Shown piece after piece: positions 7,427 through 64,000 of a stretch of 64,000 nt of DNA (within the stretch, counting starts at the first letter, position 1; the number at the start of each line of letters is the position of its first letter). The stretch lies in contig JASBTI010000043.1 in assembly GCA_030148505.1 (NCBI GenBank), positions 62,001-126,000 on the forward strand, given 5' to 3'. Source of the DNA: Rhodanobacter sp. (GTDB lineage Bacteria; Pseudomonadota; Gammaproteobacteria; Xanthomonadales; Rhodanobacteraceae). A model generated the notes under the pieces. The model did not search any database, was not told the origin of the DNA, and saw only the letters and a list, made by a program, of their open reading frames with translations. The position numbers and the translations under genes are program-made.

Positions 7427-7461
7427 TCAAGTGAGCACAGCAGCAGTCATGGCCTGAATTC

Positions 7462-8802: not shown

Positions 8803-8849
8803 TTCACACCGCTTCGCGCCGCCAACCGACTGAGGAACGGAGATCCCGC

Positions 8850-8901
8850 ATGACGCCCGCATTCGGACTGCCCGACGTCCCCCCGCTTTCAGTAGCGGTC
8901 G
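8850..8901 (+). pseudogene. 5' stub of a gene interrupted by the IS3-family element
   Basis: Forty-seven bases after the subtilisin fragment there is an ATG at 8850 preceded by a good ribosome-binding site (GGAGATCCCGC). It opens a frame beginning M-T-P-A-F-G-L-P-D that runs into the insertion element at 8902 and stops a few codons later. I cannot find its continuation beyond the right end of the element, so flanking DNA was probably lost too. Too short to identify. Confidence 0.4.
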
Positions 8902-8904
8902 GGT

Positions 8905-10013: not shown

Positions 10014-10045
10014 TCTCCTTCGGATGGGGGATTGGACTCCAAACC

Positions 10046-11500: not shown

Positions 11501-11555
11501 ATGAACTTTCCTTTGTTTGCCTGTTCCGTTGCGGCGCTGGCGAATATGATTCTTA

Positions 11556-12815: not shown

Positions 12816-12917
12816 AACCCTTCTCCATTTACTTGGGTTCTTCCGGTTGCCGCTTTTCGGTTGGCAACCGATTGGTTTCTCGTGTTTCGCGATGCCAGGT
12901 GACACGCGTGCCACTCT

Positions 12918-15737
12918 TCAATAGCGCGCTTTCTCGCGCCCGCTCGACGCAACCGGCTCACCGCCCTCCCCGGCCTGAAAAATCTCCCAGGCGAGCTTGC
13001 CAAGCCGATGGAAATGCGCCGACACGTCCGGCCCTTGCCAGGAGGGCGCCGCAACGGGCGCTTCGGCATCACGACCGGGGCCGGCGGCTTGCGTGGCGCC
13101 GTCGGAGCCTGCGCATCGCTGTGCGACGATGAGCTGGTAGTCGGGATCCTGGCGCGACTGCATCGACCATGCCATCGGTGAAAGCCCAAGTTCGGACAGC
13201 ACCGAGCGCCACGTAGCCGATGCCAGGGCCGGACCACCCTGTAGCCGCAAGGCGGCATCCTCATGAAGCCACCAGCCGTCCAGAAGACCAAACGTGAGAT
13301 GCATCATGAGAGTGTTCTTGCTGATCTCGTTGATCAGCAAAACCCCATCGGGGCCAAGCAGGCTCTTGGCATGGGACAGTGCACGGCGTATGTCGCGGGT
13401 AGCATGCAGGACATTGCTGGCCAGCACGAGGTCGTACCGACCGAGATGCCGGGCGTCGACTTCATCGAAGCGTTCGATATCCAGCACATCGTAGGTGATA
13501 TAGCCCCGGCCAGTGCCATAGCGCTGCTGCGCATCAAGCAGGAAGGTCTTGGATATATCGGTGTAGCAATACTCGGCAACGCCCAGGCCTTCGGCATCGA
13601 AACGTTCCAGCACGAGGTCGCTGCTGGCGCCGGTGCCCGCTCCGATTTCGAGTATCCGCACGGCCCGCGAAGATGCGCTTTCCTGGAAGTGCTTTATCCA
13701 ACATGCAGCCAGCGCCGCCAGGGACCGGTTGAACGCCGTGGCCACGCGATCGTTCTTGTAGAAGGTTTCCACCAGTGCGATCGACGAGTCGGGAAAGATG
13801 ACATGCGTAGCCTGTTCGCGACCGGAGAGAATGTCCGGCAATGCCGGCAAGGTTTTGGCGAGCAGGCCCAACCAGTACCGGCAGTCCGACCGGGCACCCC
13901 ACCCCTCGACCGCTTGCGACCAGCGTTTCCAGTCTGGCGCCCGGCGGTCGGCCTGCTCATCGACCACGATCGTCTGGCCTCGCAGTTCCAGCAACCCGCT
14001 ATCGGCCAACAGCAGAAGCGATTCTTGCAGCCAGTGCTCATGCCGCGAAGGAATGACGACATAGTGGCGCTCGCCGGCTCCTGCTGGCGCGGGTGCTTCG
14101 CCAACGATACCCGCGCGCTTGATCTGCGCCCAAAGCAGTGGCAACAGCATCTCCTCGATGCGCTGACGACTGTCGTCCGAGGTGCCGTCATCGACCGAAT
14201 CGAGTACCTGCCTCAAGCCTGACGTCAACGCATCAGGCAGCTCGGGGGCTGGCACCGCCTGCGGGTCGATGGGAACGCCAAGCGACGCTAGCGCTCGATA
14301 GGTCGAAAGATAGACGAGCCGATCAACCCCGCCGCACAATAGCCGCTCCAGCGCCTGCATGGCCGTTGCCGGATCGATCGATGCGATGCCCTGGGCGGCC
14401 ATGCGTTCGGCAATGACCGGATTGGCGACGATGCCGGTCGTCCCCCAATAGCCCCAGTGGATCACCTTGACCGGGAATTCGACCAGGCCGGCAAGGTGCG
14501 ACGCCAACGCGTCCTTGAACATGCAGCCCGCTACGTAATTGCCCTGCCCTCCCGATTTGAGAAAAGAAGCCGCCGAAGAGAAGAACAGCATGAAATCCAG
14601 CGGCATGTCGCGGAATACCCGTGCCAGATGCACGCTCGCGTCGACTTTGGCAGCCATGACGCGCCGCAATGCGTGCTCGCTCATGTTCGCCAGGCTGCCA
14701 TCTTCCAGCGTGATCGCCGAATGCACGACGCCGTGGATGGTCCCGAACTCCTGACGGATGCGTATGAGCGCACGATCCCAGGCGTCGCCATCGCTGGTGT
14801 CGAAAAATAGATACAGCGGCTTGGGGCCTAGCGCCGCCAGGCGCTCGACCTTGCGCTCGATCGTTGCATCGGGGGCACGCCTTCCCACCCAGATCAGCCT
14901 GGCGCGGTAACGCGTAATCAGGTACTCGCTGAACACTTCGCCGAGGCCGCCCGCACCGCCCAGGATGAAATACACCCCGCCATCGCGATAGGCGTCGGCG
15001 CCATCGCTGTCGATGCTGCATGTCTGCAACACCTGGCGATACCACTGCCCCGCACGCAGGAGCAGGGTATTGCCCTCGGCGTCAGGCGGCAGTGCCCGCC
15101 ATGCCCGCGATAATCCATCGAGCGATGCGTCGGTATCCAGCAATGTCACCTGCCATGCCGGATGCTCCTTGGCCATCGAGGCCGCCAGACCATGTACGCC
15201 GCTGCAAGCAGGGTCGACAACGTTGCCGCCATGCTCGCCTTGCGCATGCCGGGTGACAATGCTCCAGGCCAGTTCCCTGGAGCGGTAATCCAGTCTGTGA
15301 AGGGCTTTCACCAACCGGAACAGGAAGACGGTGGCAAGGTAGCAACGATCTACCAGGGCCTGGTCCGGTACGCAGTCGGCAGATGCCGACGGGAACGCAA
15401 GGATGATCTGCGCGAGCCCAGGGGATGTCGACAGCTTTTCGACGATGGCATCCACCGTGTCGTTCCACTGAACCCCAAAGTCCGACCAGCCCGGCTGCAT
15501 CGACGAGAGTGAAACGCCGACCGCGCACACATCCCCCTTCCCTGCCATCGGCAGACGCGAAACATACTGCGGTTGCCACGCGATCCAGCGAGGGCGAAAC
15601 ATCTGCGCCTTTGCCCCGGCGATGTCCCATTCGCCTGCCTGCAATGCCGTCTGCATGATCATCTCTCCGAAAGTGGCCGCGCTGCCGTATGACGCGTGGT
15701 CATGTTCCATGGACGTGCGCAGATCATTCGACTGCAC
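12918..15737 (-). CDS. PKS-C: KR and C-methyltransferase only, no KS or ACP
   Basis: A 939-residue polypeptide (GTG start at 15737; ATG at 15710 is an alternative). Residues about 45-480 form a complete ketoreductase with structural and catalytic halves: G-G-A-G-G-L-G at 260-266, catalytic Ser388 and Tyr401 (G-Q-G-N-Y), and an L-E-D at the position of the B-type 'LDD' motif. Residues about 530-870 are a C-methyltransferase with the SAM loop E-I-G-A-G-T-G at 697-703, which would place an alpha-methyl group. The protein starts 14 bp inside the end of PKS-B, whose last domain is a KS, so the two chains together make KS/KR-cMT. The expected ACP does not follow: the last 60-70 residues are low-complexity, ending A-R-Y. 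The carrier protein must come from elsewhere or has been lost. Confidence 0.9.
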   Translation of the reverse strand: MQSNDLRTSMEHDHASYGSAATFGEMIMQTALQAGEWDIAGAKAQMFRPRWIAWQPQYVSRLPMAGKGDVCAVGVSLSSMQPGWSDFGVQWNDTVDAIVEKLSTSPGLAQIILAFPSASADCVPDQALVDRCYLATVFLFRLVKALHRLDYRSRELAWSIVTRHAQGEHGGNVVDPACSGVHGLAASMAKEHPAWQVTLLDTDASLDGLSRAWRALPPDAEGNTLLLRAGQWYRQVLQTCSIDSDGADAYRDGGVYFILGGAGGLGEVFSEYLITRYRARLIWVGRRAPDATIERKVERLAALGPKPLYLFFDTSDGDAWDRALIRIRQEFGTIHGVVHSAITLEDGSLANMSEHALRRVMAAKVDASVHLARVFRDMPLDFMLFFSSAASFLKSGGQGNYVAGCMFKDALASHLAGLVEFPVKVIHWGYWGTTGIVANPVIAERMAAQGIASIDPATAMQALERLLCGGVDRLVYLSTYRALASLGVPIDPQAVPAPELPDALTSGLRQVLDSVDDGTSDDSRQRIEEMLLPLLWAQIKRAGIVGEAPAPAGAGERHYVVIPSRHEHWLQESLLLLADSGLLELRGQTIVVDEQADRRAPDWKRWSQAVEGWGARSDCRYWLGLLAKTLPALPDILSGREQATHVIFPDSSIALVETFYKNDRVATAFNRSLAALAACWIKHFQESASSRAVRILEIGAGTGASSDLVLERFDAEGLGVAEYCYTDISKTFLLDAQQRYGTGRGYITYDVLDIERFDEVDARHLGRYDLVLASNVLHATRDIRRALSHAKSLLGPDGVLLINEISKNTLMMHLTFGLLDGWWLHEDAALRLQGGPALASATWRSVLSELGLSPMAWSMQSRQDPDYQLIVAQRCAGSDGATQAAGPGRDAEAPVAAPSWQGPDVSAHFHRLGKLAWEIFQAGEGGEPVASSGREKARY

Positions 15738-18700
15738 GCAACAAGTTAACGGCCTGCGCCGGGTCCAGTTCGTCGGTATCGAGCCGATCCAGGATGTCCT
15801 CTATCCAGCCCAGCTGCCCCGACTGCCCGGCAACAGCGACACCCGGCTTGTGCGCTTCGCCCTCGATCCAATGACGCTCCCTGGCGAACGGATAGGTCGG
15901 CAGATGGGCCCGCCTCGGCATTCCATCGACATATAGCCGTTCCCAGGGCACGTCCGCACCGCGCATCCATGCGGCAAGCAGCGAATCGACATCGCCGCAC
16001 TCGAGGTAATGCCGTACGGCCTGCTCGTCCCCGGCCTCATGCGTGCCTCCGTCGACGCGCACCCGCTTGAACCGGTCGGATTCGGGCCCGCCTTCGAGCC
16101 AGCGCTGCAGTGCATCTGCAAACTCCGCGGTCGAACTCGCCAGAACGCCGAAGCGCTCGTTCATCGGCTCGCGTCCAATTTGCAGTGTGCGGGCGATCTC
16201 CTCCAGAGTGACGACGCGGTCTGATTTCAAATAGGCAAGCAGGTCCGAGACCTTGCGGTGCAATGCTTCGGATGTGCGCGCGGACAGCGGGAGCGCGTAC
16301 CTGCCGCCACCGTCGTGATGGCTGCCATGTCCGGCCTGTCGATGGCCCGGTACGTATTCTTCGATGATTACATGCGCGTTGGTGCCGCTGTAGCCGAACG
16401 AGTTGATGCAGGCCCGCAGCGGCGCGCCTTCTTGGGATTGCCACGGGCGCGCGTGCCGGTTCACGTAGAAAGGCGACTCGGCGAACGCGAAGTGTGGGTT
16501 TTCCCTCTCGACATGAAGGGTCGGCGCGATGGTGCGATGCCGAAGCGAGAGCAGTACCTTGTGCACGCTGGCGATGCCGGCGGCCGCCGCGGTGTGCCCG
16601 ATGTTGCTCTTGAGCGAAGCGAGCGCGCAGTAGCCGACCTTCCGGGTTTTTTCCCTGAACACCGTGGTCAGCGCTTCGAGCTCGATGGGATCTCCCAGCC
16701 GCGTTCCGGTGCCGTGGGTCTCCACATAGCCGATCGTGCCCGGATCGATGCCGCACTTCGCAAAAACGCTTCGTTCGAGCTCCGCCTGGCTGACTGCGCT
16801 GGGTGCGGTGATGCCGTTGGTGCGCCCGTCCTGATTGACGCCGGAGCCGGCAATCACGCCATGTATGGCATCACCATCCGCGACTGCGTCGGACAGGCGT
16901 TTGAGCACGACCGCGCCGACGCCGTCGCCCATCACGATGCCATTGGCTCCTGCATCGAACGCCCGGCATTGTCCGGTAGGCGAAAGCATGCCGGCTTCAT
17001 TCATCGACAGATATTGCTCAGGCGTAAGCCACAGGCTGACGCCTCCGGCCAGCGCCATGTCGACCTCGCCGCTGCGCAACGCCTGACAGGCCAGATGCAG
17101 GGCGACCAGCGAGGACGAACAGGCCGTGTCGACCGAGATTGCGGGCCCCTTCAAGTTGAGGTGGTAGGCGATCCGCGCCGCCGCGATCGAATAGCTGTTC
17201 CCGGTAATCGGCGGCGCCATGATGCCGTGGCGTGCCAGCATCATCGCGTAGTCGTTGGTGGAGATACCCAGATAGACGCCGCAACGTTTGTCGCTGAGTT
17301 CGCGATGGGCGTAACCGGCATCCTCGAACGCACGATAGCTTTCCTCGAGGAAAAGCCTGTGCTGCGGATCCATCAGCGAGGCTTCCTCCGGCGAAATCCG
17401 GAAGAACAGCGGATCGAAGCAATCGACGTCTTCCATGGCGCCCAGCCACTTGGACACGGCGGTATTTGCACGTTGTCCGTGCGGATCATAGAAATGCGCA
17501 ACGTCCCAGCGCCACCGTGGCACTTCGACGATTGAATCACGTCCCCGCACCAGGTTGGCCCAGAAGGCATCGAGATCGGACGCCTGCGGATAGCGGGCGG
17601 ACATGCCGACGATGGCGATGCGTTCTTCTTCCGGCAATGACGGGCGTATCCGGCGCGACTGGGATGGCACCTTGCGCAACACTGGCGGTGCTACGACCTG
17701 GCGTACGCGCGATTCATGGGCGATGGTTGTTTCGGAAGATGAGGCAGGCGCAGGTGCTGCGGGTAGCTGCGCCTGCAGGAACGCGCTGAACTCGCGGATC
17801 GTAGGATAGCTGTAGATGTTGGTTGCTTCGTAGGACGTTCCGAACGCCTCGTTGATGCGACGTATCCAAGTGACGCCAATGATCGAGTCCATGCCGAGTT
17901 CTACAAAACGGTCATCGTCGTCGATCGTGCGCCCCTGCAGGTGAAGCTCCGCATCCAGCGTCTCCCTCAGCTTCGCCTTGATGGAAGAAGGCGTATGCGC
18001 TGCGCCATTTCGAACCGGTTGGGGAGCCGGCTGCCTGCCACGCGTCGCCGAGGCGTCCAGCTCGGCGAAACGTGCCTGGATCCGCGTCGTGGTTTCTTGC
18101 TTGCCGACGAAAGTGCGCTCGTGCATGGCCAATTCTTTTTGCAGCACGTCGTCCAGGCGCGCGAGCAAAGGAGCGTTCCATGCCTGCTTGAGCCGCACCA
18201 GGTAGTCGCGCGGCTGGCCTGCGATGCGCGTGGCCAACGCGAGCGCCGCGGGAACGACTTGCTCGCGGGGCAGCACGGCATGAGCCAGGCCGCGCTCGCG
18301 CAATTCCGCGCCGCTGTATTCGTGTGCGGACAACAGGCTTTCGCGTGCCAGGTCAATGCCCAGGCGCATAGGCGCCACCAGGGTCGCCCCTGCCCCAGGG
18401 GTGAATCCGTATCCCATGTAGGGGCTGACGTAGTGGCTCTCTTCGGCGTAGATGCCGACGTCGGCGAAAAGCCCGAGCGACCAGCCCGCGCCGATGCCAT
18501 GCCCCTGCATGGCCGCAATCACCGGCAACGGGCACTGGATCGGCAACAGGAATATCGACTGGTCGGTGAAGCGTGCCGTGCCCGACTGGATGGCGAGCAG
18601 GCTTTCCCGGGTGCCGCCCGAGGCGAAATAGCTGTCGAAGCCACTGAGCACGACGACCTTGTAGGCGTGCTCGGCGACATGGCCGAACGCTTCCTTCATG

Positions 18701-21700
18701 CCCTCGACAAGAGCGGGCGAATACATGTTCTTGGCGTCGCGGTCATGCAGCTGGATCAGCAGCACGCCTCCAGGATGCGCCGTTGCGACGATCACCTCGC
18801 TGCGCAGTTCGATGGGGCCGGTCGATGGCGCCGGGAGACTGGCCGGCTGGCATGGCCGCGCAAGAGCGTCCGCATCGTCCTTCCGCCATGCCTGCAGGCG
18901 CTCGCGCTTGCGCGCGGCCACGTGCAAGCCGCCATCGGCGAGCCATGCCGCCGCCCATTCACGCGCCAGGGAATGGACGCCGTCTGCGGGCGCTACCAGC
19001 AAGGCCGGCTGCCGCAGTTTCAGCGCGGTGCCGGTAAAGGATTCGCCGGTCAGCAGCATTTCCCGGCCCAGCACATCTCCGAAACAGACAGGTGCAAGTT
19101 TTGCTGCCGCGACCATCAGGACTGGAGCGCCATGCAGATCGGCCGCCCCATACCAGCCGGACTCGCTATAGACGGCCGCATCGCAACTCAGTGCCATACA
19201 CCAGCCCGCGCCCAGTGCATCGCCGGACAAGGCCGCCACGACCGGCATCGGAGCCTCAGCGATGAGCCGCTGCAAGGCGGCCAGCGCATCCGGCTGCACG
19301 TCGCCGTCGAATGGCGCAACATCGCTCCTGAGGATGATCGCCCGGCATTGGCGGCGGCTCCTGGCATCCTCCACGGCGTCGGCGAGTTGCCTCGAGACGG
19401 TTTCGATACTGCGCGCGTCGCAGCGAATGTCGATGGGCTCGTTCACGATGCTCCAGGCACCCGCATCGTGCGCGACTGCCGCATCGCCAGCTGCGAGCGA
19501 TTGGCGCGAAGCCTGTCGCAGATGCGCCTTGAGCAACCGCAATGCCTCCGCGGGCTTGCTCTTCAGTTGATCGGCCCATGCGAATGCATGCTGCTCGACG
19601 TCCTTGCCTTCGGCCACGGGAGCGGACCAACCCCGGGTCTTCCAGTCGTTTCCGCTGGCGGCACCAAGCGGCGAGAGCAGCCTTTCGCTCATCAGGTCGC
19701 CGAACCGTTCCCGCAATGCACCGGCGCGGCTTGCCGGCCATGGGTCGCTGAAAGTGGTAAATCCGTAGGACGCTTCGGCGGCGCATACCATCACGTCGCA
19801 GAGACTGCCCAGCCACCAACCGGCGTCCGTGGCGTGGCCGGCCATGGCTGCAATGACCGGATAGGGAAAGTCAGCCAAGGCATCTTCGAGGCCGCTTTCG
19901 TGCAGCGATGCGTACTGACGCCCCTGCAGGAATCCCTCGCGCGTACCGAGCAGCACCAGGACGCGCAGCGAGTCGATGGCGCCAGCGGTATCGAGGGCTT
20001 GACGCAACGCTTCGGCCAGTTCCATCGACAACGGATTGCCGTTGCCCGCATCCATGCGAACCTCGACCACACCGTCTCCGCGATCGACCACCCGGACAGT
20101 GCAGGCGGCAAGCCGTCCGGACTCAGTGTGGGCAAGCGTGATCTGCGGACGCTGCACAGGCACCTGCGAGTGCAATGCCGCGGAGTCGATGGAACGGGGC
20201 GGCGGCAACAGGATCTGCGGCTTGCTGCCAGGGACAGCAGGTTCCGCAGTCGCATTGCTTGGTTCGGCGACGCCATGGCCCACCTGGATGAGTAATGCCT
20301 GGCGAGGCGCGTGCAACGGCGGCCCGCATGTTGTTTCGGCATCCGTCTGCGCGAGAGGCACCCGCCGCAGCACTGATGCGTCGCTTACCGCGATGCCGCG
20401 AAGTTGCCATTGCGGCACGCCCGAAGCGTCACACAGGTCCAGATCCCAGGTCCCGGCATCGCGGCGGATCCATGCCTGGCTCGCCATCGGCGCGAACGGA
20501 TCGAATACGATCGACGAAGCCGCCGACAGCTGATCCGGCAGGCCGCCAACCTCGCGCCATGCTGCATCCAGCATGGACATGAGCGATGCGCGCGCCGCGT
20601 CCTTGGTTGCGGGTTCCGGTAGCTTGACCAACGCTTCCGCGTTACCCCTACCCACTCCAGCCTGGCGCATGCGGGCCTGCAGCGCCTCCAGGTCGACGCG
20701 TGGCATGGTGCTGGCCGGTACGATCGAGGAATCCGCTTGGCAATGGAGGTGTTCGCCCTCCTCCGCGGCGCTGGCGATCGTGACGCCAATGTGGTTCTCC
20801 GCCACGTCCAGGGCAACCGTCACGGGCGCACCGGGCTCGATCGGCACGGGTGCGTTCCAGCGCATGTCTCGCAACAGGATCGCGTCGCCCTCCGCCAATC
20901 GTTCGGCATGAGCCAGCGCCGCCAATGCCATTTCCATGTGCGCGGCTGGGTGCAAGGCGCGCGCGGCGCTAAAAAAGGGCTCGTCGCCACGGAAGACGGA
21001 CCGGTAGCCGTGCTGATACAGGTCCGATATGTTCGCGTGCAGCAAAGGATGAATGACTTCGGCTCCCTTGCTTTCAGTGGCGGCGGCATCACAGCCTCGA
21101 TGCCAGTAACGCTCACGCGCGAAGGGATAGCCAGGCAGGCGAATGCGGCGCGGCATGCGTTCCCGATGCAGTCTGCCCCAATCCCACTCCACGCCCTTGA
21201 CCCATAGCTCGGCCAGCTTCTCGAGCCGGCGATGGTCCAGCCAGCGCTCGACCACTTGTTGCAGATCCGCGTCGCCGGTGAACAGTGCCGACGTTCCCTT
21301 GCCCTGCCGCACCTGGCCCTGATGCACGCCAACGGCATCGCCATCCAGGAATGCCTGCAGCGTGACCGACATTTCGGCAAGCGTGGCGGCAACGAAGCTG
21401 AGCCGATCTTCCATCGCCTCACGACCTACCTGCAGCGTGTACGCAACCGATGCCAGCGATGTCGCGGGTTCGCGTGCAAGGTAAACCACCATGTCCCGCA
21501 CTTTTTCGCGCAACCGTTCGGCCGAACGGGCCGACAGCACGATCAGTTCAGGACCTTCCCAAGGTTCTTGCGGCGCTTGTGCGGGAGCTTCTGCCACCAC
21601 CACGTGCGCATTGGTTCCGCCGAAACCGAACGAACTCATGGCCGCCCGACGCGGCTTGCCTGCGGGCACTGCCCATGGACGCAGCGATGTATTCACATAG

Positions 21701-24700
21701 AACGGGCTGCCGTCGAGACGGATATGTTCGTTGAGATGCTCGAAATGGATAGTCGGCGGTTGCTGACGATGCTGGAGCGACAACATCAACTTGATGAAAC
21801 CTGCCGCGCCCGCCGCCGTCAGGCAATGCCCGATGTTGCTCTTCACCGAGCCCAAAGCGCAGTAGCCTTCTTGCTGCGTGTATTTGCCGAAGGAGGCTTT
21901 CAACGCTTCCACTTCGATCGGGTCGCCCAGCTTGGTGCCGGTGCCATGCGCCTCGATCATCTGGATCTCGCCCGGATCGATGCCGAACCGCGAATACACG
22001 TCCTGTTGCAGGCGCGTCTGCGAGTGCGGATTGGGCGCGGTAATGCCGTTGGTCCTCCCATCCTGATTGACGCCCCAGCCTTCGACCACGCCGTAGATCG
22101 TATCGTTGTCGCGCAGCGCATCCGACAGGCGCTTGAGCACCACGGTGCCTACCGCCTCGCCGGGCACGAATCCGTTCGCGCGTTGGTCAAACGTGAAGCA
22201 GCGGCCGTCTGCCGAGAGCATCCCGGCCTGGGCCGTCTTGATGTGCATGTCGGGACCGACCATCACGTACACGCCACCGGCGAGCGCCAGGTCGCTGGCG
22301 CCGTTCACCAGGCTGTCGCAGGCATGGGCTATCGCCACCAGCGACGACGAGCACGCTGTATCGATCGACAGGCATGGCCCCTGCAAGTCGAGCAGATAGG
22401 AGATCCTTGCGGCCAGGATGGAACTGGCGTTTCCGGTAAATCCCTGCGCCGTCAGTCGCTGCTCCGCGGAGAGCTGCTGATAGTCGCCGTGCGCGCAGCC
22501 GACGAAAACACCGCAGCGGCTTCCCGAAAGTGCCCGGGGGCTATAGCCGGCATCCTCGAACGCATGCCAGCACGTCTGCAGGAACAGGCGCTGCTGGGGA
22601 TCCATGTGCTCGGCTTCCCTGGGGGAAATGCTGAAGAACAGCGGATCGAACAGATCGTAGCCATCCAGTGCACCGAGCCAGCGACTGTTGGTGCGCCCCG
22701 GAGCCGCATCGCCTGGCTGATAGTAGCGCTGCGCATCCCAGCGCTCTGGAGAAACGGACGTAATGCAATCGCGGCCTGTGGCCAGATTGTTCCAGTATTG
22801 ATGGAGATCGCTTGCTTCAGGAAAACGGCCGGCCATGCCCACCACCGCAATCGACGGCGGCCGGGAAAGCACCGGCGCTGCCGACGACTTGGGCGACTTG
22901 CGCCGGACGGATGCTGCCGGGGCGACGGGCCGAGGCGGCGTGATCGCCACCATTGCGGTGGGACGTGATGCGGGCATCGGCGTTGCCGGCGTGGGCAGCC
23001 GGCCATGTCGTTGCAGTTCCGCGCCGACATGCCGGCTCATCTGGGCCAGCGTTGGATGGCTGTAGACACGGGTGGCTTCGATGTCCAGGCCGTACGCCTC
23101 GTTGATCTTGCGCACCCAGGTCACGCCGACGACCGAATCGAGGCCAAGGTCGACGAACTGGGCGCCCTCGTCCAGCTGCGCCTCGGGCAATTGCAGTTCG
23201 TGCGCAAGCAGCCTGCGCAACGTCGCACTCACCTCAGTCGAAACAGGACCCGCTTGCGCTATCGCGACTGGTGCAGACACCGGTGCCGGTGCCGACACAA
23301 ACAAGGGCGCAGCCTTGGGCGCGGGCACGGCTGCCTGCGAAGGTAAGGCAGGTGCGCGCAACCGGCCGCAGCGCAGAAGTTCTTCCGTAACGTGACGACT
23401 CAACTGCGCCAACGTCGGGTGGCCGTAGATACGGGTGGCTTCGAGGTCCAGACCATAGGCTTCGTTGATCTTGCGCACCCAGGTCACGCCGACGACCGAG
23501 TCCAGGCCCAGGTCCACGAACTGCGCCTTCTCGTCCAGCGTTGTCATGGGCAGCTGCAACTCGTGCGCGAGCATTCGGCGCAGCGTAGTCATCACTTCCT
23601 CGTCTGGCACATTCACGCTCGAGGACGCGATGGGAATGGCCATGTCCGAGGCGCGCGCTGGCTCGCTGGCGGGCTGGAAGCGGTGCTCGATCAGCGTCAA
23701 CGTATCGTCTCTGCCTACGAACGTGCGCTCGTGCATCGTCAGCTCTTGCTGGAGAACGGTATCCAGCGAGGCGCGCAAGGGTGCCGACCATAATGTCTTC
23801 GAAGTCACCAGCCACTGGCGCGGCAGGCGCGCCATGCTTGCCGCCATTTGCAACGCCGCGTCGAACACGCGTGCCCTTGGCAGCACGTGCGACAGGGCTC
23901 CACGCTCCCGCACTTCCTTCCCGCTGTATTCGTGGCCTGCAAACAGGCTCTCCTTGGCCAGGTCCCATCCAAGCCGTGCCGGCAACGCCAGCGTGGCGCC
24001 CGCCCCCGGCGTGAAGCCGTAATTCATATAGGGACTGGAGTAGCGGCCCTCTTCGGCATGCAGGGCGATGTCTCCGAACAGGCCCAACGCCCAGCCCGCT
24101 CCGATGCCATGCCCTTGCATGGCTGCGATGACCGGGACCGGGCAGCGCATGGCGATATGGAATACAGCGTAGTCGGTGAATCGCATTGCGCCCGACTGGA
24201 TCGCCAGCAGGCTTTCCTTCGTACCGCCGGAGGCAAAGAAATGGTCGTATCCAGTCAGGACCACGACCTTGTAGGGCTCGGCCGCCGCATGCGCGAACGC
24301 TTCTTCCAGGCAGGCGACGAGTGCTTGCGAAAACATGTTCCGGACGTCGCGGTCATGCATCTCGATGACCAGCACGCCACCCGCACGGGCCGTCGCAGAG
24401 ACAACCTGGCTTGCAAGCGGAATGCGCCCTTCCGCCGGCGCTGGCCGTTCCAGCCCGACGGATTGTGCAGACTGCTGGCATTGCGCATCGACGAGTGCAT
24501 CGACCCGGCTGCGCTTCCACCCTGCCAGCGTATCGTGTGTTTGCGTGGCGAATGTGTCGGCGAGTGCGCGCGCCTGGTCGAGCACCTGCTCTGCAGGGGC
24601 GACGACGGCGAAGCCCGAATGCGAGCCAAGCGATGATCCGGCAACCAGTTCGCCAGTGAGAAATGTCTCCCGCGCACGGGCCTCGCCGAGATACTCCGCG

Positions 24701-27700
24701 GTCAACCGTGCGAGGGCGGGCATCAGTTCCGGGTCAGTGCCTGGGCTGCCGATTCCATAGCGCCCTTCCTCGTCCAGAACCATCGCGTCGCAACACAACG
24801 CCAGCAGCCAGGATGCGCCGCGCACTTCGCCGCTCAGCGCAGAGAGCACCGGCACCGGGGCCTGCATGACGCAATGCTGCAAGGCCAGCACATCACTGGC
24901 GCGGCTGGCCGCAAGCGACAGATCGGCGGCCGCCAGGATGATGGCGCGGTACCTGCCACTGGCAGCCATCTCCGCCAACAGTCCGCTCAGCTCTCGCTCG
25001 ATGGATGCGGCATCGGCATGGTCACAACGCATGACGCTGGCATCGGCCAGGCTCGTCCATTTGCCGTCAACACGCGAATGCTTCTGCGGTTCGATGTGCA
25101 CGGCATCGGCAAGATGCGCTTTCAGCAGTCGCAAGGCTTCCGCTGGCTTGGCGGCGAACTCGCCTGCCAGGGATAACGCGCAGCGGTTCACTTCGGCGCA
25201 TGGCACCACCATGCCCATCCATCCGGCCTCCGTCATTTGCGCGCCGGTGAGTCCGCCTGCCGGGAAGCACAGCGATCGCGCAAGCCGGGCGCCGAGACGC
25301 GCATGCAGCCAGGAGGCGTGCTGCGTCGCACAGCCGGCATGTGTGGCCGTATAGCCATGGTGCGCCTGCGATCCGCAAACCATCACGTCGCACAAGGTAC
25401 CCAGCCACCAGCCAACCCCGAGCGCGTCGCCGGCCATGGCCGCGATGGTCGGATAAGGGAAGTCCGCAAGCGCACGGTGCAGGCCCGTTTCGAGCACCGC
25501 TTCCTGTTCCGCCTCACCGCCTTGCAAGAAATGCGCGCTGCTTCCCTGCAGTACGAGAACGCGCAACGCAGGCAACGATCGCGCCGCCTCCAGCGCGTTG
25601 CAGATGGCTGCGCAGACGGTGCGAGTCAGCGCATTTTCCGCTGCCTCGACATGCAGCGTGACGACGCCTTTTCCTTCGTTTTCCACGCGCACGCCACATG
25701 GGTCGGCCCACACCGGCTGCACAAAGTCGCTCTGTTCTACGGCAGCAAGAATCCAGCCACGCAGTTCAGCCAGTAGCGTGCCCGACCCGTCGCACAGGTC
25801 GACATCGATTGCCGCCGAATTCGTGGCTGCCGGACGAATCCAGGCCCACACCTGCTCGCGGCAGCGCGCATAGACACGCAACCTGTCCAGGGCGATCGGT
25901 TGGTGAGTCGCAAGCGTTGCATGCGTGCCGGCCACCCACTCGGCCGCCGCGCACCTGAGTGCCAGCAGCATCTTTGGATGCAGTACGTAACCGGTCGAAT
26001 CCTGTTGTTCCGGCCACGCCAAATCCAACCTGACCAGTACATCGTTGCCATGGCGATAGGCATGTTCCGCGACCTGCGCCCATTGCCGTTGCAACGCGTG
26101 CAGATCCAGGCGCATCGCCTGTCCGTCTGCCAGCGCGCTTGCCCTGCCACGCACGTGGACGATTTGCTCGCCATCTCGTTCGCTGAAAACTTCGCAGTCG
26201 AGATCGGAAGTCTCTGCCGGGTGTGCGAGTATGACCACGGATTCATCCGGAGCCACCGGAACGGGCGCATGCCACTGCACATCCTGCAGTTCCACGGCGC
26301 CGTCGTGACGCAAGGTGTCAGCGGCCACGGCACGCAGCATTTCCAGATAGACGCTGCCATCCAGGCAGCGCTGCGCGTAACAGAATGCCTCGTCGCCGCT
26401 GAAGTTCGAGCGGTAGCTCTGCTCATACAGGCTCGAGGTGTTGACCTGCACCAACGGATGCAGGCGCGCGCCCGCAAGCGCTTCCTGCGGGACGTGTCCC
26501 GCCTCGATGTCGATCCAATAGCGCTCCCTGGCAAACGGATAGCTGGGCAGGCTGATTCGGCCGGGAACGGAATCCGGATACAGCGCACTCCAGGGAATGG
26601 ACAGTCCCTTGACCCATAGCGCCAACACCTTGTCCAGCTTGCCCGCCGCCAACCACCGCTCCAGCGTTTGCTGGATGTCCGCTTCGTCGTTGAGATGGGC
26701 CATGGTATCCATGCCCGCCTGCGCCTGCCCGGCGTAGATTCCAGCGGCACCCTCGCGACCCTGTACAAAGGCTTCAAGACTATTGATCAGGGATGCCATG
26801 TCAGGCGCGACGAAGCCCAGTCGCTCGTTCATTGCCTCGCGACCGGTTTGCAAGGTATATGCGAGCCCGGCCAGGTCGCACCCGGATCCCACGCCCTGCA
26901 GGAACTGCAGCAGTTCGCTGGCCTTTTGCCGCAGCTGTCCGCCGGTACGGGCCGACAGCACGATCGCCGCCGCTTCCGGCGCGCTTGCTGCGCGCGTCGT
27001 CGCCACGTATTCCTGCACGATCATGTGCGCATTCGAACCACCGGCTCCGAAAGAGGAAAGCCCGGCGATGCGCGGGATCCGGCGTCCCCCGAGCATGGGC
27101 GCTTCCCACTCGGCGAGTACCTGATTCACGCGAAATGGCGTTGATTCGAAGTCGATGTGTGGATTGAGCCTGGCGGAATGCAGCGACGGCACGATCTGCC
27201 GGTGCCGCATTTGCAACAAGACCTTGGTCAAGCCCGCTACGCCCGCGGCGGCCTCGCAATGGCCGATGTTGGATTTGGCTGACCCGATCAGGCAGAACTG
27301 CCGATCGCGAGTCGTGCGACCGAACGCCTTGCTCAGGGCGGCTATTTCGATCGGGTCGCCCAGGCGCGTCCCGGTACCGTGCGCTTCGAGATAGCTGACC
27401 CAGCGCGCATCGACGCCGGCATCGGCCAGCGCATCCTCGATCGCACCGGCTTGTGCTTGCGGGTTGGGGACGGTGTAGCCGTTGGTGCGCCCGCCATGAT
27501 TGAGCGCGCTGCCGCGAATCAATCCATAGATGCGGTCGCCGTCGCGCTCCGCATCGGACAGGCGCTTGAGTATGACCACACCCACGCCTTCGCCTGGAAT
27601 GTAACCGTCTCCGCCTTCGCCGAAACTCTGGCAACGACCGTCGCTGGATATGAACTGGCCGGCACTGACGGCCAGGTATTTGTTCGGATGGATGCTGACG

Positions 27701-30210
27701 TTGACGCCACCGGCGATCGCCAATCGTACGCGGCCCAACCGTAGATCCTGGCAAGCCAGATGGATCGCCGTCAGGGATGAGGAGCACATCGTGTCCACGG
27801 TCATGCTCGGGCCGTGCAGATCCAGCGCATACGACACGCGGTTGGCGATGCTCGCGGTGCTGCCGACCAGTCCCGTGCGCTGCCCGCGCATGCTCGCCTC
27901 GACCCCGAACAACTGGTATTCGCTGTACATCACTCCCGCATAGACGCCGACCTGTCCCGGCAGGCTGGCGGACGACCCGGCTGGCCGCGACTGTGCCTGC
28001 AAGTCGGCGCGCGTGCACCCGGCATCCTCCAGTGCCATCCATGTGTGCTGCAGGAACAGCCGTTCCTGGGGATCGATTCGCGCCGCTTCCCGTGGCGAGA
28101 TGTTGAAGAATTGAGGATCGAACTCATCGACGCCCTCGATGAAACCACCCCAGCGGCTGTAGTGCCGTCCCGGTTCGGTGCGATCTTCGCTGTAGTACTC
28201 GCGCCAATCCCACCGCTCACGAGGGACTTCGACAATGCAGTCGCGCCCTTCGCGCAAGTTGTCCCAGTAGGCGGCTACGTCCCGCGCAGCTGGATAACGT
28301 CCGCTCAGTCCTACGATCGCAATAAAGTCGGAACCGGACTCGCCCTGAGGCGCCGGAGCCGGCGTTTTAACCGCCGAGCCCACCGATCTGGCTTGCGGAC
28401 TTTGTTGGCCTGTGGTCACGGGAGAAGCTGCGGCGGCGCGGTTAGCCAACCCCTTGCCCGGATCCGCAGCAACCGGACGCCTGGTCGAGGAGACGAACAA
28501 TGTACCGACGACATCCGGACGCGCCTCCACCAGGTGCGTGGCAAGATCGGCCAGGTTGTGATGCTCGAACAGCAGCGTCTTGGACAGCGGCCCGAAGGTT
28601 TTTTCCAGGTGGCCGGTCAAGCGCATGGCGAGGATGGAGTCGATGCCGTAACGTTGCAGCGACTCCTGCGGATCCAGGCGTTCCGCCGGCACTTTCAGCA
28701 GCGTGGAAAATTCCTTGCGCAGGAATTCACGCATTTTCGCCTGCAGGTCGTGTTTTTCCGTGCTCGGCTGCTCCGCTGCCTGCAAGTTCGCGCGCGGCGC
28801 TGGTTGCAACAGATCTTGGTCGCGCCGTCCGTGCAGCGCCTTCAGTCGACCGGGGTTGCCTTGCACGGCCAGGGTGCTGCCTGCTCCTGCCATGATGCTG
28901 GCGTGGAAGGCTCGCATACCCTGGGCGGTCGACAATGGACGCATACCGGTTGCGTTTTCCAGCGTGGCCAGCGCTTCGGGGTCGAGTTCTGTCTCAACGT
29001 CCTGCCAGGCCGACCAGTGAATGGCCACGCTACGACCATGACGCCTGCCCTCGCCAACAAGCCGGTTGCGATGCTGCGCCAACGCCGCGAGAAAACCATC
29101 GGCGGCGGCAACGCCCAGTTGCCCGCTTTCACCGAGGACCGATGCTGCCGAGCAGGACAACGCGAAGAAATCGAGCTTGAGCTCCTTGGTGGCTTCGTCC
29201 AGGTTCGCGGCCGGCATGATCGCCGCGGCCAGGGACCGCTCGAACTCAATGGCAGGTTGATTCAGAAGCCCGGCCTGCGCGAGCTCAGCGGTTTCATGAA
29301 GAATGCCTTCGATGCCACCCCATTGCCGGACGACAGTCGCTATCAGGTGTTCCGCCGCTTGTGCATCCCGCAGGTCGATTGGTTGATGGTGCAGCCGCCC
29401 GTTCGACTGCTCTTGAAGCGTCTGAAGTTCGCTTGAAAACCGTGCTTTCGCCGGCGAGCCGGCCAGCACGACCTGCGCATGCCTGGTCTGGGCCAGTATG
29501 GTGCTGGCAAACAGAAGCCCCCTGCGCCCCAGCGCGCCAGTGATCAGGTAGACCCCGCGCTCCTTCCAGACAAGCCCCTGCGTGCGCATGGATTGCTTGC
29601 GCCAACGCAGAGACATCGGTTGGGCGCCGTCTTCGCAGCGGAGCACGGGTTCTGTCGTTCGGATTCCGGCCTGCTCCAGTTGCCGGGCCAGAGATGCGGC
29701 GGTCAGGCCTGGTTGCACAAGAACCAATTGGCCCTGGAACCCAGGATGCTCGGCGCTGGCCACTTTCAGCATGGAAGCCAGTCCGACAAGCGCCTCCATG
29801 TCGTCCGTAGCAGGCATGACCCATTGCATGAACACCGGCCCACGCACGCCACGCCGGAGTATGGCCCCGGTTCGCTCCAGACAGGCAGCCGCGCAGGACG
29901 TGTAACGTTGCACAACCGAATCGCCGGAAGCGCTGGGCAATACCGCGTAACCGTCGCATGGCAGCAAGGCCTGCAACTCGACTGGCGCAAGACCGGGGAG
30001 TTCGCAGAGCAAAACGTGGCGTTCGCCTTTCTGCGCCGCAGTGCCGGTCTCGGCGGAGACGGCTTGCCATGTCGGCGCAGCCAGCAGCAGCCGGCTGCCA
30101 TCGGACTGCTTTCGCCTCAGCGCCAGGATGCGATCCAGCGCATCCTGCTTCGAGATCCTTGCTGCGGCCAAGTCCCGGTAGATCCCTTCCAAGCTGCGAT
30201 CATCTGACAT
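15724..30210 (-). CDS. PKS-B: giant trans-AT PKS with two triple-ECH beta-branching modules
   Basis: 4828 residues from the ATG at 30210, five bases after the PPTase stop; a longer frame from 30306 overlaps that gene and has a non-protein-like Arg-rich start. Domains in order (residues): docking helix 1-40; degenerate KR 210-470; ACP 492-563 (Ser525); KS1 628-1068 (Cys809, His944, His984); degenerate DH 1248-1488; three ECH domains 1503-1713, 1723-1893, 1930-2178; tandem ACPs (Ser2238, Ser2359); KS2 2452-2873 (Cys2620, His2755, His2795); degenerate DH 3052-3273; three ECH domains 3370-3568, 3591-3763, 3800-4048; ACP (Ser4109); KS3 4196-4618 (Cys4364, His4499, His4539). There is no AT domain, so malonyl must come from a free AT. 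The third ECH of each array is PksI-like. It ends on a KS linker and overlaps PKS-C by 14 bp. Confidence 0.95.
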   Translation of the reverse strand: MSDDRSLEGIYRDLAAARISKQDALDRILALRRKQSDGSRLLLAAPTWQAVSAETGTAAQKGERHVLLCELPGLAPVELQALLPCDGYAVLPSASGDSVVQRYTSCAAACLERTGAILRRGVRGPVFMQWVMPATDDMEALVGLASMLKVASAEHPGFQGQLVLVQPGLTAASLARQLEQAGIRTTEPVLRCEDGAQPMSLRWRKQSMRTQGLVWKERGVYLITGALGRRGLLFASTILAQTRHAQVVLAGSPAKARFSSELQTLQEQSNGRLHHQPIDLRDAQAAEHLIATVVRQWGGIEGILHETAELAQAGLLNQPAIEFERSLAAAIMPAANLDEATKELKLDFFALSCSAASVLGESGQLGVAAADGFLAALAQHRNRLVGEGRRHGRSVAIHWSAWQDVETELDPEALATLENATGMRPLSTAQGMRAFHASIMAGAGSTLAVQGNPGRLKALHGRRDQDLLQPAPRANLQAAEQPSTEKHDLQAKMREFLRKEFSTLLKVPAERLDPQESLQRYGIDSILAMRLTGHLEKTFGPLSKTLLFEHHNLADLATHLVEARPDVVGTLFVSSTRRPVAADPGKGLANRAAAASPVTTGQQSPQARSVGSAVKTPAPAPQGESGSDFIAIVGLSGRYPAARDVAAYWDNLREGRDCIVEVPRERWDWREYYSEDRTEPGRHYSRWGGFIEGVDEFDPQFFNISPREAARIDPQERLFLQHTWMALEDAGCTRADLQAQSRPAGSSASLPGQVGVYAGVMYSEYQLFGVEASMRGQRTGLVGSTASIANRVSYALDLHGPSMTVDTMCSSSLTAIHLACQDLRLGRVRLAIAGGVNVSIHPNKYLAVSAGQFISSDGRCQSFGEGGDGYIPGEGVGVVILKRLSDAERDGDRIYGLIRGSALNHGGRTNGYTVPNPQAQAGAIEDALADAGVDARWVSYLEAHGTGTRLGDPIEIAALSKAFGRTTRDRQFCLIGSAKSNIGHCEAAAGVAGLTKVLLQMRHRQIVPSLHSARLNPHIDFESTPFRVNQVLAEWEAPMLGGRRIPRIAGLSSFGAGGSNAHMIVQEYVATTRAASAPEAAAIVLSARTGGQLRQKASELLQFLQGVGSGCDLAGLAYTLQTGREAMNERLGFVAPDMASLINSLEAFVQGREGAAGIYAGQAQAGMDTMAHLNDEADIQQTLERWLAAGKLDKVLALWVKGLSIPWSALYPDSVPGRISLPSYPFARERYWIDIEAGHVPQEALAGARLHPLVQVNTSSLYEQSYRSNFSGDEAFCYAQRCLDGSVYLEMLRAVAADTLRHDGAVELQDVQWHAPVPVAPDESVVILAHPAETSDLDCEVFSERDGEQIVHVRGRASALADGQAMRLDLHALQRQWAQVAEHAYRHGNDVLVRLDLAWPEQQDSTGYVLHPKMLLALRCAAAEWVAGTHATLATHQPIALDRLRVYARCREQVWAWIRPAATNSAAIDVDLCDGSGTLLAELRGWILAAVEQSDFVQPVWADPCGVRVENEGKGVVTLHVEAAENALTRTVCAAICNALEAARSLPALRVLVLQGSSAHFLQGGEAEQEAVLETGLHRALADFPYPTIAAMAGDALGVGWWLGTLCDVMVCGSQAHHGYTATHAGCATQHASWLHARLGARLARSLCFPAGGLTGAQMTEAGWMGMVVPCAEVNRCALSLAGEFAAKPAEALRLLKAHLADAVHIEPQKHSRVDGKWTSLADASVMRCDHADAASIERELSGLLAEMAASGRYRAIILAAADLSLAASRASDVLALQHCVMQAPVPVLSALSGEVRGASWLLALCCDAMVLDEEGRYGIGSPGTDPELMPALARLTAEYLGEARARETFLTGELVAGSSLGSHSGFAVVAPAEQVLDQARALADTFATQTHDTLAGWKRSRVDALVDAQCQQSAQSVGLERPAPAEGRIPLASQVVSATARAGGVLVIEMHDRDVRNMFSQALVACLEEAFAHAAAEPYKVVVLTGYDHFFASGGTKESLLAIQSGAMRFTDYAVFHIAMRCPVPVIAAMQGHGIGAGWALGLFGDIALHAEEGRYSSPYMNYGFTPGAGATLALPARLGWDLAKESLFAGHEYSGKEVRERGALSHVLPRARVFDAALQMAASMARLPRQWLVTSKTLWSAPLRASLDTVLQQELTMHERTFVGRDDTLTLIEHRFQPASEPARASDMAIPIASSSVNVPDEEVMTTLRRMLAHELQLPMTTLDEKAQFVDLGLDSVVGVTWVRKINEAYGLDLEATRIYGHPTLAQLSRHVTEELLRCGRLRAPALPSQAAVPAPKAAPLFVSAPAPVSAPVAIAQAGPVSTEVSATLRRLLAHELQLPEAQLDEGAQFVDLGLDSVVGVTWVRKINEAYGLDIEATRVYSHPTLAQMSRHVGAELQRHGRLPTPATPMPASRPTAMVAITPPRPVAPAASVRRKSPKSSAAPVLSRPPSIAVVGMAGRFPEASDLHQYWNNLATGRDCITSVSPERWDAQRYYQPGDAAPGRTNSRWLGALDGYDLFDPLFFSISPREAEHMDPQQRLFLQTCWHAFEDAGYSPRALSGSRCGVFVGCAHGDYQQLSAEQRLTAQGFTGNASSILAARISYLLDLQGPCLSIDTACSSSLVAIAHACDSLVNGASDLALAGGVYVMVGPDMHIKTAQAGMLSADGRCFTFDQRANGFVPGEAVGTVVLKRLSDALRDNDTIYGVVEGWGVNQDGRTNGITAPNPHSQTRLQQDVYSRFGIDPGEIQMIEAHGTGTKLGDPIEVEALKASFGKYTQQEGYCALGSVKSNIGHCLTAAGAAGFIKLMLSLQHRQQPPTIHFEHLNEHIRLDGSPFYVNTSLRPWAVPAGKPRRAAMSSFGFGGTNAHVVVAEAPAQAPQEPWEGPELIVLSARSAERLREKVRDMVVYLAREPATSLASVAYTLQVGREAMEDRLSFVAATLAEMSVTLQAFLDGDAVGVHQGQVRQGKGTSALFTGDADLQQVVERWLDHRRLEKLAELWVKGVEWDWGRLHRERMPRRIRLPGYPFARERYWHRGCDAAATESKGAEVIHPLLHANISDLYQHGYRSVFRGDEPFFSAARALHPAAHMEMALAALAHAERLAEGDAILLRDMRWNAPVPIEPGAPVTVALDVAENHIGVTIASAAEEGEHLHCQADSSIVPASTMPRVDLEALQARMRQAGVGRGNAEALVKLPEPATKDAARASLMSMLDAAWREVGGLPDQLSAASSIVFDPFAPMASQAWIRRDAGTWDLDLCDASGVPQWQLRGIAVSDASVLRRVPLAQTDAETTCGPPLHAPRQALLIQVGHGVAEPSNATAEPAVPGSKPQILLPPPRSIDSAALHSQVPVQRPQITLAHTESGRLAACTVRVVDRGDGVVEVRMDAGNGNPLSMELAEALRQALDTAGAIDSLRVLVLLGTREGFLQGRQYASLHESGLEDALADFPYPVIAAMAGHATDAGWWLGSLCDVMVCAAEASYGFTTFSDPWPASRAGALRERFGDLMSERLLSPLGAASGNDWKTRGWSAPVAEGKDVEQHAFAWADQLKSKPAEALRLLKAHLRQASRQSLAAGDAAVAHDAGAWSIVNEPIDIRCDARSIETVSRQLADAVEDARSRRQCRAIILRSDVAPFDGDVQPDALAALQRLIAEAPMPVVAALSGDALGAGWCMALSCDAAVYSESGWYGAADLHGAPVLMVAAAKLAPVCFGDVLGREMLLTGESFTGTALKLRQPALLVAPADGVHSLAREWAAAWLADGGLHVAARKRERLQAWRKDDADALARPCQPASLPAPSTGPIELRSEVIVATAHPGGVLLIQLHDRDAKNMYSPALVEGMKEAFGHVAEHAYKVVVLSGFDSYFASGGTRESLLAIQSGTARFTDQSIFLLPIQCPLPVIAAMQGHGIGAGWSLGLFADVGIYAEESHYVSPYMGYGFTPGAGATLVAPMRLGIDLARESLLSAHEYSGAELRERGLAHAVLPREQVVPAALALATRIAGQPRDYLVRLKQAWNAPLLARLDDVLQKELAMHERTFVGKQETTTRIQARFAELDASATRGRQPAPQPVRNGAAHTPSSIKAKLRETLDAELHLQGRTIDDDDRFVELGMDSIIGVTWIRRINEAFGTSYEATNIYSYPTIREFSAFLQAQLPAAPAPASSSETTIAHESRVRQVVAPPVLRKVPSQSRRIRPSLPEEERIAIVGMSARYPQASDLDAFWANLVRGRDSIVEVPRWRWDVAHFYDPHGQRANTAVSKWLGAMEDVDCFDPLFFRISPEEASLMDPQHRLFLEESYRAFEDAGYAHRELSDKRCGVYLGISTNDYAMMLARHGIMAPPITGNSYSIAAARIAYHLNLKGPAISVDTACSSSLVALHLACQALRSGEVDMALAGGVSLWLTPEQYLSMNEAGMLSPTGQCRAFDAGANGIVMGDGVGAVVLKRLSDAVADGDAIHGVIAGSGVNQDGRTNGITAPSAVSQAELERSVFAKCGIDPGTIGYVETHGTGTRLGDPIELEALTTVFREKTRKVGYCALASLKSNIGHTAAAAGIASVHKVLLSLRHRTIAPTLHVERENPHFAFAESPFYVNRHARPWQSQEGAPLRACINSFGYSGTNAHVIIEEYVPGHRQAGHGSHHDGGGRYALPLSARTSEALHRKVSDLLAYLKSDRVVTLEEIARTLQIGREPMNERFGVLASSTAEFADALQRWLEGGPESDRFKRVRVDGGTHEAGDEQAVRHYLECGDVDSLLAAWMRGADVPWERLYVDGMPRRAHLPTYPFARERHWIEGEAHKPGVAVAGQSGQLGWIEDILDRLDTDELDPAQAVNLLRAVE
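18067..20103 (-). other. Second triple ECH (crotonase) array of PKS-B
   Basis: PKS-B residues about 3370-4048, the same three-domain layout as the first array. Domain 3 again has F-A-S-G-G, G-H-G-I-G-A-G-W and Y-G-F-T-P-G-A-G-A-T. The ACP that follows (Ser4109) also carries the flag Trp (4115). Array and module look like a duplication of the preceding ones that kept one ACP instead of two. Confidence 0.85.
23011..23604 (-). other. Tandem ACPs with the beta-branching Trp flag
   Basis: Two nearly identical ACPs in PKS-B, each with G-L-D-S-V-V-G-V-T-W-V-R-K-I-N. The phosphopantetheine serines are 2238 and 2359, and a Trp stands six residues after each (2244, 2365), the position known to mark ACPs served by HMG-CoA-synthase homologues. 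Confidence 0.85.
23677..25704 (-). other. First triple ECH (crotonase) array of PKS-B
   Basis: PKS-B residues about 1503-2178. Domain 1 keeps a crotonase-like A-A-M-A-G-D-A-L-G-V-G-W; domain 2 is eroded (S-G-E-V-R-G-A-S-W); domain 3 is closest to PksI-type ECH2 enzymes, with F-A-S-G-G, A-A-M-Q-G-H-G-I-G-A-G-W and Y-G-F-T-P-G-A-G-A-T. Dehydration and decarboxylation of the HMG-type branch are the expected reactions. Confidence 0.85.
28807..29589 (-). other. Degenerate ketoreductase domain of PKS-B
   Basis: PKS-B residues about 210-470. The nucleotide-binding loop is T-G-A-L-G-R-R-G instead of the usual G-G-x-G-G-x-G. In the catalytic block ending G-Q-L-G-V-A-A-A-D the active-site Tyr is Val367 and the following Asn is Asp371. 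It should not reduce; a structural role is likely. Confidence 0.75.
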
Positions 30211-30214
30211 CACG

Positions 30215-53513: not shown

Positions 53514-53558
53514 AGGTCGTCCTCCAGATTGGCTCTGCGCAACATGTGCCCGCACCGG

Positions 53559-55114: not shown

Positions 55115-55173
55115 GATGCCCCCATGGCCCTTTGTCGTCGCTTGTGCCGGATCGCGGCGCGAGCGTGTCTTTT

Positions 55174-57850: not shown

Positions 57851-64000
<6,150 letters not shown>

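Follow-up and report, generated by a model that had tools for sequence, protein, structure and literature searches.

Polyketide synthases (PKSs) are dimers, and both the fit of a trimeric crotonase within them and the role of the truncated enoyl-CoA hydratase (ECH) domain that can precede an embedded ECH2 are, to our knowledge, unsettled. Among the closest described systems, a trimeric state is reported for PksH, PksI and CurF; in PksI the catalytic residue is His230, Gly66 and Gly108 are oxyanion residues, and Lys80 and Lys232 are dispensable (PMC7501309). The lasonolide proteins LasH and LasO carry a truncated ECHa before ECH2, proposed to be inactive because of its size and missing oxyanion sites, an arrangement commonly observed with exo-methylenes (PMC9600693), and the onnamide protein OnnB has two ECH domains (PMC6855096). 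A related arrangement is found in a 64,000-nucleotide stretch of Rhodanobacter sp. DNA, hereafter the window (assembly GCA_030148505.1, contig JASBTI010000043.1 or C12, C12:62001-126000, from a 3.68-Mb draft genome). Here a single minus-strand gene, PKS-B (window 30306-15724, 4860 aa), contains two consecutive modules, A and B, each with an array of three ECH domains (E1, E2 and E3), of which only the third looks catalytic. The favored reading, with a probability of roughly 0.6, is that each array serves as one decarboxylation unit of a beta-branching module in a trans-AT PKS, a single-chain pseudotrimer in which one active decarboxylase is joined by two scaffold pseudo-subunits.

Pfam recognizes three ketosynthase (KS) domains, six ECH_1 stretches (whole-protein E 1.6e-155), four acyl carrier proteins (ACPs) and one ketoreductase (KR) in PKS-B, as well as two PKS_DH_N stretches and one PS-DH stretch of the dehydratase (DH) type. 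Local HMMs place these domains in the order KR-ACP, KS-DH*-E1-E2-E3-ACP-ACP, KS-DH*-E1-E2-E3-ACP and a last KS (Table 1), with boundaries that are approximate because the models were built from PKS-B itself. The His-bearing active-site segment is missing from both DH* domains and is kept in the DH of a PKS on contig C1 of the same genome. On the minus strand of the window, the ECH_1 matches lie at 25674-25087 (83.4 bits), 24918-24457 (50.1) and 24381-23716 (155.9) in array A, and at 20079-19486 (58.3), 19284-18901 (44.9) and 18771-18097 (159.9) in array B. All six exceed the Pfam cut-off of 27 bits; E2 spans only 68-221 (array A) and 77-204 (array B) of the 251 profile positions. The repeated KS-DH*-ECH-ECH-ECH layout, first proposed from the letters of this stretch and a list of its open reading frames (the original prediction), is thereby borne out. 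That an array might hold fewer than three crotonase folds was rejected, as Pfam and NCBIfam match all six segments. An assembly or frameshift artefact was likewise rejected, since both arrays lie in one open frame and other genomes show the same domain order. The two modules are only 42-45% identical in long BLAST pieces, which suggests an old duplication.

Examined one by one, all six ECH domains have PRK07110, the PksI-type family, as their best NCBIfam match. Its cut-off of 215 bits is passed by E3 in both arrays (256.3 and 256.5), whereas E1 (96.5 and 89.7) and E2 (55.6 and 67.9) fall below it. Against PDB sequences, array A E3 matches PksI with 223.6 bits and CurF with 160.4 bits, and array A E2 gives weak crotonase matches (best 39.6 bits). 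When aligned to PksI, all 19 full-length E3 rows have an equivalent of His230, compared with 0 of 19 E1 and 0 of 13 E2 rows. The E3 rows, a twentieth of which is cut by a contig end, include the E3 of pairs, one free ECH2 (locus L066) and one single embedded ECH2 (L067). All 20 E3 rows have Gly65-Gly66 and 19 have Phe81, which is replaced by Tyr in L067. The columns around Phe81 are absent from all E1 and E2 rows, and no E2 row shows the Gly-Gly of the first oxyanion site, in a region where the alignment is uncertain. Thus, E3 has the curated profile score, the His230 equivalent and the oxyanion-site glycines of an ECH2 decarboxylase, while E1 and E2 have neither the profile score nor the histidine. 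Nor do they resemble an ECH1 dehydratase (PksH), as neither PRK07112 nor the ECH1 clade is closest to them, and PRK07112 is not among the matches listed for E1 and E2 (best 25 of 48, 16 of 16, best 25 of 33 and 19 of 19). These comparisons agree with the original prediction that full resemblance to PksI is confined to the third domain and that the first two are altered, being truncated, below the family cut-off and without the histidine. E1 and E2 are probably inactive.

In a tree of 72 rows (the contig-cut E3 of L024 left out, rows of L086-L089 included, root for drawing only), most E1 (17 rows) form a clade with 100/98 support and all E2 (13 rows) form one with 100/99; the grouping of 18 array E3 is less well supported (84/78). 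The distant loci L078, L080 and L086 are exceptions: their E1 sit on long or unsure branches that lie outside the E1 clade. A 100/100 branch separates ECH1 and housekeeping crotonases from E1, E2, E3 and ECH2. Since the domains sort by position and not by array, the triple predates the duplication of the window's modules, and the placement of E1 and E2 in the tree shows that they descend from the ECH2 side. Across five close pairs, dN/dS was 0.30, 0.33, 0.68, 0.62 and 0.35 for E1, 0.22, 0.28, 0.25 and 0.19 (plus one identical pair) for E2, and 0.15, 0.08, 0.15, 0.28 and 0.15 for E3. These ratios indicate that E1 and E2 are under purifying selection and that E3 is kept most strictly. Arrays A and B of the window (dN/dS 0.31, 0.51 and 0.30 at dS 1.7, 1.3 and 1.0) are too distant to weigh. 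Locus L062 of genome G103 has two E2 (6293-6862 and 15747-16316) that are identical in 190 of 190 codons compared, with E1 73% identical, presumably a result of gene conversion or recent local copying.

AlphaFold2 models of array A (pLDDT 82.4) and array B (681 residues, pLDDT 79.6) both reach a pTM of 0.83. By a simple estimate, 3 A within and 20 A between domains would give a pTM of about 0.41, and 0.83 requires about 4.6 A between domains. The models support the packing of each array as one rigid body. The top Foldseek match of the array B model is PksI (TM-score by target 0.84, E 3e-15, 45% identity over 243 columns), a span that corresponds to one domain, by identity E3. By eye, strands and helices in the E1 model succeed one another as in the crotonase fold, and E2 is without the first strands; two C-terminal helices are retained in both, but the long His-bearing helix of E3 is missing. 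Such C-terminal helices form the trimer contacts of crotonases.

A scaffold role for E1 and E2 is proposed because the crotonases of beta-branching are trimeric, three folds are fused here with one of them intact, and the model packs as one rigid body. As descendants of ECH2, E1 and E2 would have lost the catalytic-His helix and parts of the active-site loops and stayed as structural pseudo-subunits. With three folds fused, every PKS chain would contain a closed pseudotrimer of its own, and this would have just one active site. More broadly, we lean slightly toward regarding the array as a natural single-chain crotonase trimer of one active subunit and two scaffolds that fits a three-fold enzyme into a two-fold PKS, with pairs of E1 and E3 as intermediates or as users of another third partner.

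All members of an HMG synthase (HMGS)-type cassette, namely HMGS, donor ACP, KS0, ECH1 and ECH2 (as E3), are encoded in the genome. The second HMGS of the window scores 210 on TIGR01835, below the cut-off of 360. Contig C1 carries KS0 (PRK07103, 608 against a cut-off of 445), in which GASASG stands where a KS has Cys. Beside it lies a free PksH-like ECH1 (PRK07112, 333 bits against a cut-off of 250; PksH, 276.7 bits) that keeps equivalents of Asp68 and Glu137, as read by eye. All three ACPs that follow the arrays carry the beta-branching Trp flag (pattern DSxxxxxW), and the single ACP before them does not. The literature mentions this flag (PMC9600693; PMC12560621). The two adjacent beta-branching modules of the original prediction are supported. 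Following what is established for the cassette members present, the KS and Trp-flagged ACP would give a beta-ketoacyl thioester, to which free HMGS would add an acetyl-type unit that KS0 prepares on the donor ACP. Dehydration by the free PksH-like ECH1 and decarboxylation by the embedded E3 would then leave a beta-methyl or beta-methylene branch, in two consecutive modules of PKS-B; these are the reactions and product that we infer. On C1, a PKS start follows KS0 and ECH1, and the contig ends 8-10 kb further on, 118 bases past the PKS frame, whereas C12 ends inside PKS-A. No exact overlap of 20-399 bases was found between the C1 and C12 ends, so that a single cluster can only be presumed, and the KS0 and ECH1 genes on C1 presumably belong to the PKS-B cluster. 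The PKS start on C1 (L027 1169-3500) has LPG_synthase_C-like and beta-eliminating-lyase-like (PLP) domains followed by KS-DH-KR, an odd loading region.

Among the matches listed for 398 genomes of the order, E1-E2 sequence occurs in seven (the genome studied here, G294, G103, G395, G275, G327 and G086, whose contig ends after E2), and none of 21 other genomes of the same genus is among them. At 1e-30, 7 of 233 genomes of the family match; one of these (G331) has an ECH2 without E1-E2, and the Rhodanobacter genome is the sole member of its genus among the six carriers. In the class sample, 3 of 369 genomes match at 1e-12 (this genome, G471 with a pair, and G595), and in the phylum sample 11 of 398 match at 1e-20 (this genome, G471 and nine with single-domain matches). 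Fetched sequence holds nine complete triples beyond the window: three in Tahibacter aquaticus, two in G103, and one each in a Lysobacterales metagenome-assembled genome, G395, G275 and G327. A further triple is truncated at the end of its contig (L024), L071 is a fragment, and G103 has a third place that shows only an E1-E2 match. Across the 18,272 bases compared, G294, a genome of the same family, does not differ from the Tahibacter aquaticus contig. Complete triples were found only in Lysobacterales relatives, with up to three per cluster, and uniqueness of the triple to the Rhodanobacter genome was rejected. In G595, outside Lysobacterales, a KS-E1 frame (L078 2-3085) is followed by a frame with a middle ECH and E3 (3114-10226), possibly a triple split by a gene boundary or frameshift.

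Pairs of E1 and E3 are present in L064, L065, Xanthomonas cannabis (L025), G471 (L080), an Ensifer canadensis plasmid (L084) and a Nostoc plasmid (L086), and single embedded ECH2s in L067, L083 and L089. Close ECH2s occur in 18 plasmid records. A survey of 13 of these (the other five were judged from organism and identity to be duplicates; of the two places in the Eleftheria record, one was covered) gave two pairs, two single embedded domains, nine free or fused at a protein end, and no triples. In L067 (G331:C30:1-20000), the minus frame 8124-20000 has seven tandem ACPs directly before its single embedded ECH2 (aa 2054-2889). An Azospirillum argentinense plasmid (L082 6012-8693) encodes a KS-ECH fusion that is not an ECH-TE protein, with an ECH2-like domain (aa 644-894) that has Gln at the PksI His230 position, as in the ECHQ of Art21.

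Several observations weigh against the favored reading. The two AlphaFold2 models derive from the same six sequences in different order and are not independent, and the closed, PksI-like ring is a presumed geometry. In the PksI study, PksH-PksI heterotrimers were not found, and the PksI-H230A variant kept reduced turnover of a CoA substrate (PMC7501309), which makes the loss of the histidine strong but not final evidence that E1 and E2 are inactive. In one lineage E1 is weakly constrained (dN/dS 0.62 and 0.68), and E1 in L063 and in one L062 array matches just the last two thirds of its model. The paired arrays lack E2 in six fetched loci and embedded ECH2s are single in three; pairs and singles cannot close a trimer within one chain, so completion of a trimer in cis is not a general need. 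Local HMMs recognized no hidden third crotonase before E1 in the pairs, and paired and single ECH domains are also found in published pathways (PMC9600693; PMC6855096). Lastly, KS0 and ECH1 are on a different contig from the arrays, with no overlap of the ends.

The main rival to a scaffold role is that E1 and E2 are adaptor or gating domains, which would hold the tandem ACPs or the trans-acting HMGS and ECH1 near E3, or steer endo versus exo outcomes. Purifying selection on E1 and E2 fits such a role, as do the pairs without E2, which imply that a truncated domain can act outside a closed trimer, and a truncated ECH before ECH2 is said to accompany exo-methylene formation commonly (PMC9600693). 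However, an endo-methyl is predicted from the same architecture in that source, so the link to exo products is not strict, and the high pTM shows packing with E3, which an adaptor neither requires nor excludes. An adaptor is possible but doubtful. A further proposal, compatible with the pseudotrimer, is that the arrays install different branches, each with its own HMGS; myxovirescin, which has two HMGS, is the model for it. Two HMGS genes are indeed present here, but they are 75% identical; a single donor ACP candidate was found in the window and fetched parts of C1 and C12, the regions searched for donor ACPs, and one KS0 and one ECH1 lie beside each other. This makes separate HMGS assignments unlikely.

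Another reading takes E1 and E2 for leftovers of ECH2 duplications that have no function, in agreement with the absence of the catalytic His equivalent from 32 of 32 E1 and E2 rows. Both domains nevertheless stay in frame in nine further complete triples and form separate clades, with dN/dS below 1 in every measurable close pair, and decay without function is therefore quite improbable. The least probable alternative is that E1 or E2 performs the ECH1 dehydration in cis, as might be imagined from their position before the decarboxylase and from the suggestion in the original prediction that the first two domains may have split or new roles. Dehydration is better assigned to the free PksH-like ECH1 beside KS0, with its Asp68 and Glu137 equivalents. 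Together with the PRK07110 family of E1 and E2 and the 100/100 branch that sets ECH1 apart from them, this led to the rejection of a cis ECH1, and a sharing of the canonical reactions between E1 and E2 is not supported.

Table 1. Features of PKS-B and neighboring genes, in window coordinates.
Feature	Coordinates	Strand	Evidence
PKS-B gene, (KR-ACP)-[KS-DH*-E1-E2-E3-ACP-ACP]-[KS-DH*-E1-E2-E3-ACP]-KS	15724..30306	-	Pfam, local HMMs
KS, module A (approximate)	27040..28341	-	Pfam, local HMMs
DH*, module A, without active-site segment	25732..26460	-	Pfam
Array A E1: truncated, no catalytic His	25060..25689	-	local HMM, alignment to PksI, NCBIfam
Array A E2: truncated, no Gly-Gly first oxyanion loop, no catalytic His	24427..25059	-	local HMM, alignment, NCBIfam
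Array A E3: PksI/CurF-type ECH2, His230 equivalent present	23692..24405	-	PDB sequence search, alignment, NCBIfam
ACP 1, module A, Trp flag DSVVGVTW	23392..23604	-	
ACP 2, module A, Trp flag DSVVGVTW	23029..23241	-	
KS, module B (approximate)	21619..22872	-	Pfam, local HMMs
DH*, module B with linkers (approximate), without active-site segment	20107..21129	-	local HMM segment
Array B E1	19471..20094	-	local HMM, alignment, NCBIfam
Array B E2	18817..19455	-	local HMM, alignment, NCBIfam
Array B E3: PksI/CurF-type ECH2, His230 equivalent present	18082..18795	-	alignment, NCBIfam
ACP, module B, Trp flag DSIIGVTW	17779..17991	-	
Third KS of PKS-B, after second branching module	16387..17640	-	Pfam, local HMMs
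Next protein, KR + methyltransferase	12918..15737	-	Pfam
HMG synthase 1	11556..12914	-	Pfam
HMG synthase 2, 75% identical to HMG synthase 1	53855..55177	-	Pfam
Donor ACP (ACPD) candidate, 92 aa	53562..53837	-	NCBIfam PRK07117, 105 bits vs cut-off 79
Trans acyltransferase	52386..53555	-	Pfam
PKS-A (3' part), ends KS-DH	57852..64000	-	Pfam

With PKS-A ending in KS-DH, the next module seems to be split between PKS-A and PKS-B, and the KR and methyltransferase of the protein after PKS-B likewise suggest modules split across proteins. The cluster also holds an asparagine-synthase-like amidotransferase (55969-57816) and a metallo-beta-lactamase-fold hydrolase (55174-55926), and two MacB/FtsX permeases (45395-47812 and 48838-51354), all on the minus strand. 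An integrase-core protein (8905-9930) and a KfrA-like protein (6323-7369), also on the minus strand, adjoin the cluster; along with the lack of E1-E2 matches in other genomes of the genus, these neighbors hint at horizontal gain. Three large open reading frames (ORFs) in the left flank (68-2518 and 2579-3826 on the plus strand, 4305-6140 on the minus strand) were matched neither by Pfam (at 0.001) nor by PADLOC, and none of five ORFs had a match in PADLOC.

Arrays with exactly three domains, one of them intact, offer a compact test object for the idea of trimer completion. If the pseudotrimer is correct, each array should be annotated as one decarboxylation and not three, and would be a template for transplanting ECH2 into other modules in self-contained form. 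The finding further draws attention to trans-AT PKS clusters of Rhodanobacteraceae and their relatives, for which two or three closely spaced beta-branches are predicted.

A literature search on triple ECH domains, fused crotonase trimers and trans-AT PKSs of these genera gave no report of three in a row among the papers listed, weak evidence of absence given that few subscription papers were covered; PMC7930024 does not mention ECH. The rarity claimed in the original prediction stands in part: no published triple was found, but pairs of truncated ECH and ECH2 are common in print (PMC9600693) and several relatives carry the triple. The layout itself is shared, as Tahibacter aquaticus and Lysobacterales genomes have the same KS-DH*-E1-E2-E3-ACP(-ACP) order, with three arrays in Tahibacter; no published description of these was found, and they are known here from sequence alone. 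Tandem ECH domains also occur in cis-AT PKSs such as that of cylindrocyclophane (PMC9582728), which resembles PKS-B in having more than one ECH per chain and differs in being cis-AT, with an ER after the ECHs. Art21 of the aurantinin pathway has an ECH2-derived domain that lacks the catalytic His yet retains a role (ECHQ-TE; PMC11425284); like E1 and E2 it is His-less, but it is a free didomain protein that redirects the assembly line and not an array. E3 shares its family profile, catalytic His and aligned oxyanion glycines with PksI of bacillaene and the CurF ECH2 of curacin. However, PksI is a free homotrimer and the CurF ECH2 a single embedded domain, whereas here three domains are fused and one is intact. 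LasH, LasO and OnnB are similar in their truncated ECH before an embedded ECH2, Trp-flagged ACPs and free ECH1 (PMC9600693; PMC6855096). Ultimately, the triple array is an elaboration of this described pair: where those proteins have one truncated domain, each array of PKS-B has two different truncated domains before E3, in two consecutive modules.

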